A stretch of 64,000 nt of DNA from Oceanibaculum pacificum (lineage in GTDB: Bacteria > Pseudomonadota > Alphaproteobacteria > Oceanibaculales > Oceanibaculaceae): positions 1 through 64,000 of the forward strand of contig NZ_LPXN01000127.1 in NCBI RefSeq assembly GCF_001618175.1, written 5' to 3'. The position numbers and the translations under genes were made by a program. The notes beneath the pieces were generated by a model. That model was not told the origin of the DNA and searched no databases. It worked only from the letters and a program-made list of their open reading frames with translations. Numbering within the stretch: position 1 is the stretch's first letter; the number at the start of each line of letters is the position of its first letter. Shown here piece by piece: positions 28,204 to 57,481 of this stretch.

Positions 28204-28352
28204 GCGTGCTGCTCTACCTGATCCCCATCGCGCTCGCTCTTGGCGCTGCCGGCCTCGTGGCCTTTCTGTGGGCGCTGCGCCAGGGCCAGTTCGAGGATAT
28301 GGACGGCGCCGCCATCCGCATCCTGTTCGATGAGGATGAGGCCCAGCGATAG
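28200..28352 (+). CDS. ccoS: CcoS cbb3 maturation protein
   Basis: A 50-residue protein starting MSVLLYLIPIALALGAAGL, with one membrane helix followed by WALRQGQFEDMDGAAIRIL, the characteristic CcoS pattern (GQF(E/D)D). It overlaps the end of ccoI by 4 bp. CcoS is needed for haem and copper insertion into CcoN. Last gene of the maturation operon. Confidence 0.92.
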   Translation: MSVLLYLIPIALALGAAGLVAFLWALRQGQFEDMDGAAIRILFDEDEAQR

Positions 28353-28420
28353 CCAGCCATTTGCACAATATGTGTCGGAACGGCTTGACGCTTTTCGCCC
28401 TATCCCACAAGATATAGACG

Positions 28421-28605
28421 TTACGGTATCCGAGGTGTCAGCATCTTGGTCGGGAATCCGGTGCGCCGCGCCAAGACGGTAAAGCCGGGGCTGCCCCCGC
28501 AACTGTAAGCGGTTAGCTTTGCGTCCTTTCTTGCCACTGGTGCGCCACGTGCTGGGAAGGCTGGACCAAAGCGCGGAGCCGCGAGCCAGGAGACCGGCCG
28601 TAACG
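28421..28605 (+). promoter_or_regulatory. Cobalamin (B12) riboswitch upstream of nrdAB
   Basis: Conserved aptamer segments occur in order: GTGTCAGCATCTTGGTCGGG, GGGAATCCGGTG, the B12 box core GCTGCCCCCGCAACTGTAAG (28490-28509), GCCACTG (28533-28539), GGGAAGG (28554-28560) and GAGCCAGGAGACC (28583-28595). It sits between ccoS and nrdA and reads toward nrdA. Cobalamin binding should lower expression of the B12-independent reductase. Confidence 0.95.
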
Positions 28606-28685
28606 CATGCGTAATCCTCGGGCGGGGTGCACCGATGGGGCATAGTCGACGCGCTTTGCGTGCGTCCGGCGCGTGCTCCCATTTT

Positions 28686-28712
28686 CCCCGTCCAACAGAC
28701 CAACCGACGGGG
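28686..28712 (+). promoter_or_regulatory. Probable RBS-sequestering hairpin of the B12 riboswitch
   Basis: CCCCGTC (28686-28692) pairs with GACGGGG (28706-28712), which contains the only Shine-Dalgarno-like G run, 5 nt before the nrdA ATG at 28718. An upstream GGCGGGG (28621-28627) could pair with the same CCCCGTC using one G-U pair and release the ribosome site. This suggests translational control rather than attenuation. Confidence 0.6.
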
Positions 28713-28717
28713 TAACG

Positions 28718-30676
28718 ATGTCCTCTCTCGCCTTTGATTTCGATCATGACGGCCATCTGGTCCCGCAGACTCCGGCAGGTCCGGCGCAGTCGGCGAGACC
28801 GCGGCCGCAGCCCCCGCGAGAGGAACCCCGCCAGGAAGCTTTTCGGCTGGAGCGCAAGGCCCCGCTGACCGGGCCGTTGGCGATCCGCCCGAAGCCGTCC
28901 GATCTGGTGCTGGACCGCAGCCGTGACGATCTGCTGACCGCCTTCGGCAAGGCGACGCTGATGGACCGCTATCTGCTGGCCGGCGAAAGCTTCCAGGACA
29001 TGTTCGCCCGCGTCTCCTGCGCCTTTGCCGACGATGTGGTGCATGCGCAACGCCTGTATGACGCCATGTCTAAACTCTGGTTCATGCCGGCGACGCCGGT
29101 GCTGTCCAATGGCGGCACGACGCGCGGCCTGCCGATTTCCTGCTTTTTGAATTCCGTGCCGGATTCGCTGACCGGCATCGTGCGCACCTGGAACGAGAAT
29201 GTGGCGCTGGCCTCCAATGGCGGCGGCATCGGCACCTATTGGGGCCAGGTGCGCTCCATCGGCGAATCGGTGAAGGGGGCGGGCGAGACCTCGGGCATCA
29301 TCCCCTTCATCCATGTCATGGACGGGCTGACGCTGGCGATCAGCCAGGGCTCGCTGCGTCGCGGCTCGGCAGCGGTCTATCTCGACATTCATCATCCGGA
29401 GATCGAGGAATTCCTGGAAATCCGCAAGGCATCGGGCGATTTCAACCGCAAGGGCCTGAACCTGCATCACGGCATCAACATCACCGACGAATTCATGCAG
29501 GCGGTGCAGGATGGCGCGCTGTTCGATCTGAAAAGCCCGAAGAATGGCGAGACGCTGCGCAAGGTGAATGCCCGCCAGCTCTGGCAGCGCATCCTGGAGA
29601 CGCGGCTGCAGACCGGCGAGCCCTATCTGCTGTTCATCGATTCGGTGAACCGAGCGCTGCCGCGCCATCAGCAGAAGCTGGGGCTGAAGGTCACCACCTC
29701 CAACCTGTGCAGCGAAATCACGCTGGCCACCGGGGCCGACCATCAGGGCGAGGAACGCACCGCGGTGTGCTGCCTGTCCTCTCTGAATGTCGAGACCTGG
29801 GACGAGTGGAACGAAGCGCCGGGCTTCATCGAGGATGTGTTGCGCTTTCTGGATAATGTGCTGAGCCACTTCATCGACGTGGCGCCAGATGGCATGGAGC
29901 GGGCGAAATACTCTGCCATGCGGGAGCGCTCGGTCGGGCTCGGCGTCATGGGCTTCCATTCCTTCCTGCAGGCCAACGGCATCCCGTTCGAGAGCGCGCT
30001 GGCGAAATCCTGGAACTTCCGCATCTTCCGCAAGATCCGGCGCGAGGCCGATGCCGCCTCGGTGGCGCTGGCGGAGGAGCGCGGGCCGTGCCCGGACGCG
30101 CAGGAGGCCGGCATGAAGGCGCGATTCAGCCATAAGATCGCCATCGCGCCGACCGCCTCGATCAGCATCATCTGCGGCGGCACCAGCGCCGGCATCGAGC
30201 CGGTCCCGGCCAATATATACACCCACAAGACGCTGTCCGGCGCGTTCTCGGTACGCAATCGCCATCTTGAGAAATTACTGGAGGAAAAGGGGCGAAACAC
30301 CCCTGAAATCTGGCAATCCATTGTGGAAAAGGAAGGCTCGGTCCAGCATCTCGATTGTTTGAGCGAGGATGAGAAGGCGACCTATCGCACCGCCTTCGAG
30401 ATCGATCAGCGCTGGATCATCGACCTGGCGGCCGACCGCACGCCCTTCATCTGCCAGAGCCAGTCGCTGAACCTGTTCCTGCCGGCCGATATCGCCAAGT
30501 GGGACCTACACATGCTGCACTGGTCGGCCTGGAAGCGCGGCATGAAGAGCCTGTATTACTGCCGCTCCAAATCGATCAGCCGCGCCGCCTTCGCCGGCAA
30601 GCTGGAGGAGGGCGCGGCGTCCGCCTTCGACAACACCGACCCGACCGATTACGAGGAGTGTCTGGCATGTCAGTGA
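28718..30676 (+). CDS. nrdA: Class Ia ribonucleotide reductase, large (alpha) subunit
   Basis: Reduces ribonucleoside diphosphates to deoxy forms. A 652-residue protein. The active-site regions are LPISCFLNSVPDSL and SNLCSEITL. Radical-relay tyrosines are near the end (MKSLYYCRSK), and the C-terminal redox pair is CLACQ. The N-terminal about 65 residues are Pro-rich, and no ATP-cone signature is seen, so dATP overall-activity inhibition is probably absent. The start at 28718 follows the riboswitch and its SD hairpin. It overlaps nrdB by 10 bp. Confidence 0.95.
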   Translation: MSSLAFDFDHDGHLVPQTPAGPAQSARPRPQPPREEPRQEAFRLERKAPLTGPLAIRPKPSDLVLDRSRDDLLTAFGKATLMDRYLLAGESFQDMFARVSCAFADDVVHAQRLYDAMSKLWFMPATPVLSNGGTTRGLPISCFLNSVPDSLTGIVRTWNENVALASNGGGIGTYWGQVRSIGESVKGAGETSGIIPFIHVMDGLTLAISQGSLRRGSAAVYLDIHHPEIEEFLEIRKASGDFNRKGLNLHHGINITDEFMQAVQDGALFDLKSPKNGETLRKVNARQLWQRILETRLQTGEPYLLFIDSVNRALPRHQQKLGLKVTTSNLCSEITLATGADHQGEERTAVCCLSSLNVETWDEWNEAPGFIEDVLRFLDNVLSHFIDVAPDGMERAKYSAMRERSVGLGVMGFHSFLQANGIPFESALAKSWNFRIFRKIRREADAASVALAEERGPCPDAQEAGMKARFSHKIAIAPTASISIICGGTSAGIEPVPANIYTHKTLSGAFSVRNRHLEKLLEEKGRNTPEIWQSIVEKEGSVQHLDCLSEDEKATYRTAFEIDQRWIIDLAADRTPFICQSQSLNLFLPADIAKWDLHMLHWSAWKRGMKSLYYCRSKSISRAAFAGKLEEGAASAFDNTDPTDYEECLACQ

Positions 30677-31761
30677 ATTTGGGCAATCTCGACCCACGCA
30701 CGCTGATCGGCACCGGCAAGGTCGGGCTGTTGACCGCAACCGGCACCTATGACGTCAACCGCTATGGCTGGGCCTACGATTATTGGAAGCGCCAGCAGCA
30801 GACCCACTGGATGGGCGAGGAAGTGCCGCTGGGCGGCGACATCAAGGATTGGGCGTCAGATCGCGTGACCGACGCGGAGCGGGCCCTGCTGACGCAGATT
30901 TTCCGCTTTTTCACCCAATCGGATGTCGAGGTCGGCGATAATTACCTGAAGCGCTATATCCCGATCTTCCAGCCGCTTGAGCTGCAGATGATGATGGCCG
31001 CCTTCTCCAACATGGAGACGGTTCATATCGACGCCTATGCGCTGCTGCTGAAAACCCTGGGCATGCCGCAATCCGAGTTCGAGGCGTTCCGCGACTATGG
31101 CGAGATGCGCGCCAAGGCGGATTACATGCACACGTTCGGCGTCGGCACCGTGTCCGACGTGGCACGCACACTGGCCATGTTCGGCGCATTCACTGAGGGG
31201 ATGAGCCTGTTCGCCAGCTTCGCCATGCTGCTGAACTTCCCCCGCCATAACAAGATGAACGGCATGGGGCAGATCGTCTCCTGGTCGGTGCGCGACGAGA
31301 GCCTGCATTGCGAGGGCATCATCCGGCTGTACCATGAATGGCACCGGGAAACCGGCGCGGTCACCGCCGCCGTGCGCGACGACATCATCGACGTCGCCAA
31401 GACCATGGTCAGGCTGGAGGAGCGTTTCATCGACCTGGCCTTCGGCCTCGGCCAGATCGAGGGCATGACCGGCGATGCGATCAAGGCCTATGTGCGCTAT
31501 ATCGCGGATTGGCGGCTGACCCAGCTTAAGCTGCCGACGGTGTTCGGCTATTTCGAGCAGACCGACACCGGCTACAAGCAACTGCGCCCGCATCCGCTGC
31601 CCTGGCTGGTGGAAATACTGAACGGCGTCGAGCACGCCAATTTCTTCGAGCAGCGCGCCACCGAATATTCCAAGGGCGCCAGCCGCGGCAGCTGGGACGG
31701 CGAGGAGGGCGTGTGGGCCATGTTCGAAAAGCGCGAGAAGGCGGCGCTGGGCACGCATTGA
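30667..31761 (+). CDS. nrdB: Class Ia ribonucleotide reductase, small (beta) subunit
   Basis: A 364-residue di-iron radical subunit. The ligand and radical motif NMETVHIDAYALL gives E117, H120 and Tyr124, matching E115/H118/Y122 of the E. coli protein. The second pair is in SWSVRDESLHCEG. There is no N-terminal ATP-cone. It starts inside the end of nrdA (10-bp overlap), so both are under the cobalamin riboswitch. Confidence 0.95.
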   Translation: MSVNLGNLDPRTLIGTGKVGLLTATGTYDVNRYGWAYDYWKRQQQTHWMGEEVPLGGDIKDWASDRVTDAERALLTQIFRFFTQSDVEVGDNYLKRYIPIFQPLELQMMMAAFSNMETVHIDAYALLLKTLGMPQSEFEAFRDYGEMRAKADYMHTFGVGTVSDVARTLAMFGAFTEGMSLFASFAMLLNFPRHNKMNGMGQIVSWSVRDESLHCEGIIRLYHEWHRETGAVTAAVRDDIIDVAKTMVRLEERFIDLAFGLGQIEGMTGDAIKAYVRYIADWRLTQLKLPTVFGYFEQTDTGYKQLRPHPLPWLVEILNGVEHANFFEQRATEYSKGASRGSWDGEEGVWAMFEKREKAALGTH

Positions 31762-56508: not shown

Positions 56509-57288
56509 TCAGGCGGGGTCTGTCTCCGGCTGCCAATGCAGGGCGCGCCGGGTGATTATGTCGATGAGGAAATAGAGGCTGACCGCCATCGCCGCGAGCA
56601 CGATCAGGGCGGCGAACAGCAGGTCTATCTGCAGGCGGGCATTGGCGTGCAGCATCAGATAGCCGAGGCCGGCGCTGGAGCCGACCCATTCGCCCACCAC
56701 CGCGCCGATCGGGGCGACGGCGGCGGCGATCCGCAAGCCAGCCGCAAAGCCGGGCAGGGCCGCCGGCATGCGCACGCGCCAGAGCAGCCGCCAGCCGGTG
56801 CAGCCCAGGGTGCGGGCGCTGTCGATCCAGGATTTGTCGGTGCGGCGCAGCCCGTCATGGAAGGCGGCGGTAACGGGGAAGAAGATGATCAGCGCCGCCA
56901 TCGCCACCTTGGAGGCCAGGCCATAGCCGAGCCACAGCACCAGGATCGGCGCCAGCGCGAAGACCGGGATCGCCTGGCTGACCACCAGCACCGGCATCAG
57001 CCAGCGCCTCACCTCGCCCGAGAGCGCCATGAGCAACGCCGTGGAGGTGCCGAGCAGAACGCCCAGAACAAGGCCCAGCACGATCTCCAGCAGGGTCACG
57101 CCGGCATGCTTCAGGATGATCTCGTGCCGCAGGATCAGCGCATCCAGCACGGCGGCCGGCGGCGGCAGCAGGAAAGGCTCGATCGCGGTCGCCCAGACCA
57201 GCGCCTGCCAGCACAGCACAAGGCCGACCAGGGTGATGGCGGGCCGCGCCAAAGGGGCTGAAATGCTTCTGGAAACGTTTGCCGGCAT
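56509..57288 (-). CDS. thiX: ThiX-like ABC transporter permease
   Basis: A 259-residue permease with about six helices. The EAA loop is GCTGWRLLWRVRMPAALPGFAAGLRIAAAVAPIGAVVGEW (about 160-200), of the SsuC/ThiX type. The ATG at 57288 lies directly after the TPP riboswitch, whose 3' end contains the Shine-Dalgarno sequence. The pair with ThiY lacks the usual adjacent ThiZ ATPase. Confidence 0.88.
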   Translation of the reverse strand: MPANVSRSISAPLARPAITLVGLVLCWQALVWATAIEPFLLPPPAAVLDALILRHEIILKHAGVTLLEIVLGLVLGVLLGTSTALLMALSGEVRRWLMPVLVVSQAIPVFALAPILVLWLGYGLASKVAMAALIIFFPVTAAFHDGLRRTDKSWIDSARTLGCTGWRLLWRVRMPAALPGFAAGLRIAAAVAPIGAVVGEWVGSSAGLGYLMLHANARLQIDLLFAALIVLAAMAVSLYFLIDIITRRALHWQPETDPA

Positions 57289-57290
57289 CG

Positions 57291-57373
57291 CCTCTCCCTA
57301 CGCCCGTACTAGCGGGATCAGGTTCTGGGGTCGTTGCGTCGCGCAACCTCTCAGCCGTCAGGCTCCCCCGAGG
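57291..57373 (-). promoter_or_regulatory. TPP (thiamine pyrophosphate) riboswitch
   Basis: Read on the minus strand: CCTCGGGGGAGCC, then GGCTGAGAGG, ACCC, GAACCTGATC and GCGTAGGGAGAGG, the full thi-box. The closing helix pairs CCTC (57373-57370) with GAGG (57294-57291). The latter is part of the Shine-Dalgarno GGGAGAGG just before the thiX ATG. Thiamine pyrophosphate should therefore block translation directly. Confidence 0.95.
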
Positions 57374-57481
57374 AAGGCGCGACTATGGGCGCAAGAGGAT
57401 CGGCGCGCAAGGGGCTGTCTCGAAGCATAAGGCGGCCTTCTCAGGATTGACCGACGGGCTGCCGCGACGTACCTGAAGCGC

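Follow-up and report, generated by a model that had tools for sequence, protein, structure and literature searches.

A probable translational cobalamin riboswitch on the nrdAB operon of Oceanibaculum pacificum, with a predicted L13-based switch and an abutting NrdR-box promoter

Introduction

How may bacteria with both B12-dependent and B12-independent ribonucleotide reductases choose which to make? The question is raised by a 64,000-nucleotide stretch of DNA from Oceanibaculum pacificum (contig NZ_LPXN01000127.1, positions 1 to 64,000 of the forward strand; hereafter the window), in which a cobalamin aptamer precedes the genes for a B12-independent reductase. An initial annotation of the window had proposed that this aptamer controls the operon through a hairpin over the ribosome site. 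Here we follow up that proposal by covariance-model and protein family searches, comparison of nrdA relatives and energy modelling of the leader RNA.

Results

A complete cobalamin aptamer precedes the nrdAB operon

The elements of the nrdA leader and the two genes downstream of it are as follows.

28407 to 28616, forward strand: cobalamin riboswitch aptamer (RF00174), 112 bits, E 3e-27, full length
28495 to 28500, forward strand: CCCCGC of loop L5, perfect complement of 28622-28627 in its kissing partner L13
28618 to 28635, forward strand: putative P13 stem-loop (UCGG-loop-CCGA) bearing L13, from a reading of the sequence
28620 to 28627, forward strand: L13, GGGCGGGG; predicted from sequence and modelled pairing to pair with L5 (bound state) or, as anti-sequestrator, with 28686-28693 (free state)
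28686 to 28693, forward strand: candidate anti-Shine-Dalgarno arm CCCCGUCC; either 28686-28692 masks the Shine-Dalgarno (SD) sequence or the arm pairs with L13
28706 to 28712, forward strand: SD arm GACGGGG of the masking hairpin, forming a 7-bp stem with 28686-28692
28718 to 30676, forward strand: nrdA, alpha subunit (652 aa) of a class I ribonucleotide reductase (NF006577, 1011 bits; PF02867, PF00317)
30667 to 31761, forward strand: nrdB, beta subunit (364 aa) of a class I ribonucleotide reductase, its start lying within the end of nrdA (NF007186, 502 bits; PF00268)

The aptamer match spans the whole covariance model (positions 1-189), for which the gathering score is 31.5 bits. A full aptamer upstream of nrdA had been proposed correctly, but its start had been set at 28421, 14 bases later than the true start at about 28407. 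The GGGG of the SD arm is the SD core and ends 5 nt upstream of the nrdA ATG. The three segments CCCCGTC (28686-28692), GACGGGG (28706-28712) and GGCGGGG (28621-28627) each occur once in 28401-28760 and stand where the initial annotation had set them. The genes 5' of the riboswitch, named by eye, read as a cbb3-oxidase cluster, and the window also holds a TPP riboswitch (RF00059, 59.6 bits) on the reverse strand at 57278-57379.

NrdA and NrdB match their families NF006577 and NF007186 over the cut-off and lie below the cut-off for the NrdE/NrdF families TIGR04170/04171. A domain search matched no ATP-cone, the N-terminal domain of E. coli NrdA, in either protein. The pair is assigned from its sequence to class I, without a subclass; the earlier label of class Ia thus stands as to the class I families and not as to the ATP-cone.

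The same genome encodes two B12-dependent reductases

The assembly that we searched comprises 3.9 Mb in 181 contigs and is 92% complete. A search with the reductase barrel family returned three enzymes, NrdA and two others, which bears out an earlier prediction that nrdJ would be found outside the window. The first class II reductase, on contig C171 (L009), is 1239 aa long; its match, at 2250 bits, is to NF005736, a B12-dependent family. The second, on contig C3 (L008:5736-9170), has 1144 aa, matches TIGR02504 with 569 bits and is split by a LAGLIDADG intein. Because two B12-dependent reductases are encoded in the same genome, B12 is predicted to shut off NrdAB. The genome also has one further cobalamin riboswitch, 5' of a TonB receptor resembling btuB, and a gene for cobalamin adenosyltransferase, and no CbiC/CobH was found in it. 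This combination fits a B12 scavenger, with the incompleteness of the assembly as a caveat.

The riboswitch is conserved upstream of many nrdA relatives

Eighty nrdA relatives were fetched from species genomes, and an aptamer lies upstream of nrdA in 47 of them, mostly from Alphaproteobacteria plus Wenzhouxiangella. Bradyrhizobium, Pseudolabrys, Magnetospirillum, Stella, Desertibaculum and many uncultured Alphaproteobacteria are represented. Eight of the riboswitch-bearing loci (L050, L053, L057, L061, L063, L064, L067 and L068) come from Wenzhouxiangella or another gammaproteobacterial contig and carry an alphaproteobacterial-type nrdA, which suggests transfer of nrdA together with its switch. 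The aptamer is absent from all 20 of the most distant relatives (Caulobacteraceae, Hyphomonadaceae, Robiginitomaculum and others). Two Bradyrhizobium have decayed cobalamin riboswitches upstream of nrdA, at 40.6 bits (L052) and 34.2 bits (L060); neither yielded an L5 motif.

It had also been stated that cobalamin switches on class I reductases are used where a class II enzyme is present. All 47 riboswitch-bearing genomes have evidence of class II, over the cut-off in 45 and as sub-cut-off fragments only in L020 and L069. The converse fails, since NrdJ is present in 18 of 29 riboswitch-less genomes and is therefore insufficient for having the riboswitch. The association of riboswitch and NrdJ (45/47 versus 18/29, Fisher p 2.6e-4) is descriptive and ignores descent. 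On the NrdA tree the riboswitch trait shows about 5 changes and its association with NrdJ only about 4 supported independent contrasts. The association agrees with the rule yet is not independent evidence for it, because it follows descent and offers too few contrasts. Close relatives that have NrdJ and no riboswitch at nrdA are L013, L017, L018, L022, L023, L024, L026, L036, L039, L044 and L047; these are probably losses.

A conserved hairpin is predicted to mask the ribosome site

A 7-bp hairpin over the SD, together with no intrinsic terminator found in 28300-28800, gives the leader two features of a translational OFF riboswitch. Since no terminator was found, control is probably translational. 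The CCCCGTC/GACGGGG hairpin had been proposed in the initial annotation, and the comparison of leaders supports it. In 38 non-redundant riboswitch-bearing leaders we counted stems of at least 6 bp that the SD can form with the bases 17-45 nt upstream of it. Such stems occur in 23 of the 38. Permuting the upstream parts between loci gives 14.9 (as many as 23 in 2 of 2000 permutations), and shuffling them gives 12.0 (as many in 0 of 200). No such excess over permutation was found in riboswitch-less leaders (7/24 versus 4.7). The arms of the hairpin vary while their complementarity stays: CCCCGUC/GACGGGG here is CUCUCC/GGAGAG in L012, GACCCCC/GGGGGUC in L016, CUUCCCCU/AGGGGAAG in L033 and CCUCCG/CGGAGG in L061.

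The hairpin signal is modest against dinucleotide shuffles (z -0.61, SE 0.23). The SD pairing of the window itself in a 50-base fold is 0.73, as it is in shuffles, so support for the hairpin is comparative and does not come from the single sequence. Two measures were dropped. The SD pairing probability in a fixed 50-base fold was too coarse, as shuffles of GC-rich leaders pair equally; a permutation of duplex energies without composition control was misleading, as an upstream control region scored equally, and it gave way to tests of stem length that were controlled by shuffles and by region.

B12 might instead act mainly on transcript level, by Rho-dependent termination or by RNA decay after loss of translation, and not on translation initiation alone. 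Transcript-level action is common among riboswitches generally. The title of Borovok 2006 (as cited in PMC5962746) also presents the Streptomyces nrdABS system as control of transcription. The leader has no intrinsic terminator in the region searched, however, and its relatives conserve the SD-masking hairpins, and we regard this explanation as improbable.

L13 is complementary to both L5 and the anti-SD arm

L5 (CCCCGC) and L13 (GCGGGG) can form 6 bp as perfect complements. This kissing-loop pairing is canonical in 37 of the 46 loci in which both loops are readable. Compensatory changes from C-G to U-A are seen in L050 and L057, and L033 has one such change together with a G-U wobble; the remaining loci have a wobble (three) or one mismatch (three). 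In 21 of 38 leaders the arm region also holds a complement to L13 of at least 7 bp; shuffles give 11.6, and none of 200 gave as many as 21. No such excess was found mid-leader or in riboswitch-less leaders. Part of the complementarity follows from composition, because the arm is C-rich and the SD G-rich.

In the energy model the platform of the window has two states of similar energy: an SD-free form with the GGGCGGGG:CCCCGUCC pairing at -48.3 kcal/mol and an SD-masked form at -46.6 kcal/mol. When L13 is kept unpaired, the modelled SD pairing is 1.00. Across 37 leaders, modelled SD pairing is 0.57 with L13 free to pair and 0.76 with L13 blocked, rising in 19 leaders and falling in 3 (p 2e-5); blocking other 7-mers gives 0.62, a smaller effect (p 1.5e-4). 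The proposed correspondence, in which the bound form has a masked SD and the free form an open one, thus agrees with the model for the window and for 19 of the 37 leaders. Modelled and comparative evidence together support GGCGGGG (28621-28627) as the anti-sequestrator that the initial annotation had suspected, now refined to a conserved L13 kissing loop with which both L5 and the SD-masking arm can pair.

The riboswitch might also regulate nrdAB without L13 as the anti-sequestrator. L5-L13 docking would then do no more than stabilise the SD hairpin and P13, while another pairing, with the 3' arm of P13, the middle hairpin or the coding region, would open the free form. Several observations favour such a design. 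A longer fold of the platform keeps the SD hairpin and has L13 paired to the start of the coding region, and windows around the 3' arm of P13 are themselves SD-complementary in 12 of 38 leaders, against 6.2 expected. The alternative stem of P. megaterium metE is likewise formed by the 3' side of P13 (PMC10653944). Blocking L13 gives no clear change of SD masking in 15 of the 37 leaders and a fall in 3; because about half of the leaders are unresponsive in this simple model, the exact coupling of L13 to the SD probably varies, and may differ between lineages. Among the regions tested, however, only the arm region is enriched in complements of L13, and blocking L13 has a larger effect than blocking other 7-mers. 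We consider a switch in which L13 is not the anti-sequestrator less likely, though the most serious of the alternatives weighed here, and retain L13 as the predicted anti-sequestrator.

The riboswitch begins at a putative promoter with an NrdR-box-like palindrome

Two further elements, which the initial annotation missed, lie at the start of the aptamer.

28385 to 28390, forward strand: putative -35 element TTGACG; TTGAC lies 19-23 nt before the start of the NrdR box in most riboswitch-bearing nrdA loci
28405 to 28420, forward strand: NrdR-box-like palindrome CCACAAGATATAGACG, overlapping the presumed -10 element CAAGAT (28408-28413) and transcription start

The palindrome is found at a fixed position in 48 loci and in nearly every relative that bears the riboswitch; in the riboswitch-bearing loci its first base precedes the aptamer match by 1-5 nt. 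Its core, CwAnATnTwG, is that of the NrdR box, whose conserved C and G lie nine bases apart (compare PMC9110341); across 40 non-redundant loci these two bases reach 93%. The NrdR-box score has a median of 14.8, against 8.0 at 16 non-nrd cobalamin riboswitches of the same genomes (p 1.3e-9), and the O. pacificum genome encodes NrdR (TIGR00244, 169 bits). A strict sigma-70 scan found no promoter at 9 of 12 loci. A second box at the canonical distance of 31 bp (three helix turns) was not found in the window, which has a weak one at 42 bp. A similar site, CCGCTAGATATAGGGT, lies 151 bases before the longer nrdJ (L009, position 4917), and no box of similar strength was found upstream of the intein-bearing nrdJ.

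Because the NrdR box lies on the putative promoter, at the start of the riboswitch, nrdAB is probably also under nucleotide-level control. We infer that NrdR binds this site, and predict dual control in which transcription of nrdAB would answer to the nucleotide level through NrdR and translation to B12. Might NrdR be the only regulator, and the aptamer a decayed remnant? Decayed copies do exist, in the two Bradyrhizobium described above. The aptamer of the window, though, is complete over its full length and has canonical L5 and L13 loops, and a close relative (L011) keeps its aptamer at 126.6 bits, which makes this explanation very improbable.

Discussion

Taken together, the nrdAB operon of O. 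pacificum, which encodes the B12-independent reductase, very likely carries a translational OFF cobalamin riboswitch with a predicted L13-based switch and probable NrdR control. We infer from the aptamer and its pairings that the RNA binds B12 and switches in the cell. With cobalamin bound, L5 would dock on L13 so that L13 is no longer free; the arm CCCCGUC would then fold onto GACGGGG and mask the nrdA ribosome site. Without cobalamin, L13 would pair with the arm, the ribosome site would be free and NrdAB would be made. The cell would rely on NrdJ in the presence of B12 and on NrdAB in its absence, and the NrdR repressor would act at its box on the promoter.

Whether this design extends to the whole lineage of alphaproteobacterial and Wenzhouxiangella nrdAB genes is an evenly balanced judgement. 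Throughout that lineage L13 may be the entire switch, contested by L5 and the anti-SD arm, with the riboswitch set atop an NrdR-box promoter, so that a leader of about 330 bases would join nucleotide sensing in transcription to B12 sensing in translation. The group concerned includes a large set of Alphaproteobacteria, Bradyrhizobium and Magnetospirillum among them. We found no description of it in the literature searched; older surveys may list such sites.

A cobalamin switch on a B12-independent isozyme is a kind of control already known. Such riboswitches precede metE and, in Chlorobium, nrdD (Sun et al. 2013, PMC3766115; PMC8620254), and share the logic that the B12-independent enzyme is off when B12 is present; the target here differs, being nrdAB in Alphaproteobacteria and Wenzhouxiangella. 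What our analysis adds is this group, a translational design with L13 as the shared partner, and the abutting NrdR-box promoter.

The closest parallel in target is Streptomyces nrdABS, where a cobalamin riboswitch likewise lies 5' of a class Ia nrdAB operon, according to the citation of Borovok et al. 2006 in PMC5962746. In S. coelicolor the class I and class II operons are both reported to have NrdR boxes (PMC9110341). The system described here belongs to a different phylum and its NrdA is without a detected ATP-cone. The Streptomyces switch is described, at least in the cited title, as transcriptional control, whereas here no terminator was found and an SD-masking hairpin is conserved.

The closest parallels in mechanism are the known translational cobalamin riboswitches, in which the kissing loop promotes a hairpin at the ribosome-binding site (PMC10653944; PMC10907184). 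A 2023 paper called the coupling between kissing loop and ribosome site unknown (PMC10653944), and the nrdA leader offers a compact and testable model of this step. In the E. coli btuB and env8 hydroxocobalamin riboswitches, as proposed here, L5-L13 pairing promotes the hairpin and stops translation (PMC10653944). Their likeness to the nrdA leader ends at two points: the target here is a B12-independent isozyme and not a transporter, and the SD has a hairpin of its own, about 80 nt downstream of L13, with L13 itself the predicted anti-sequestrator.
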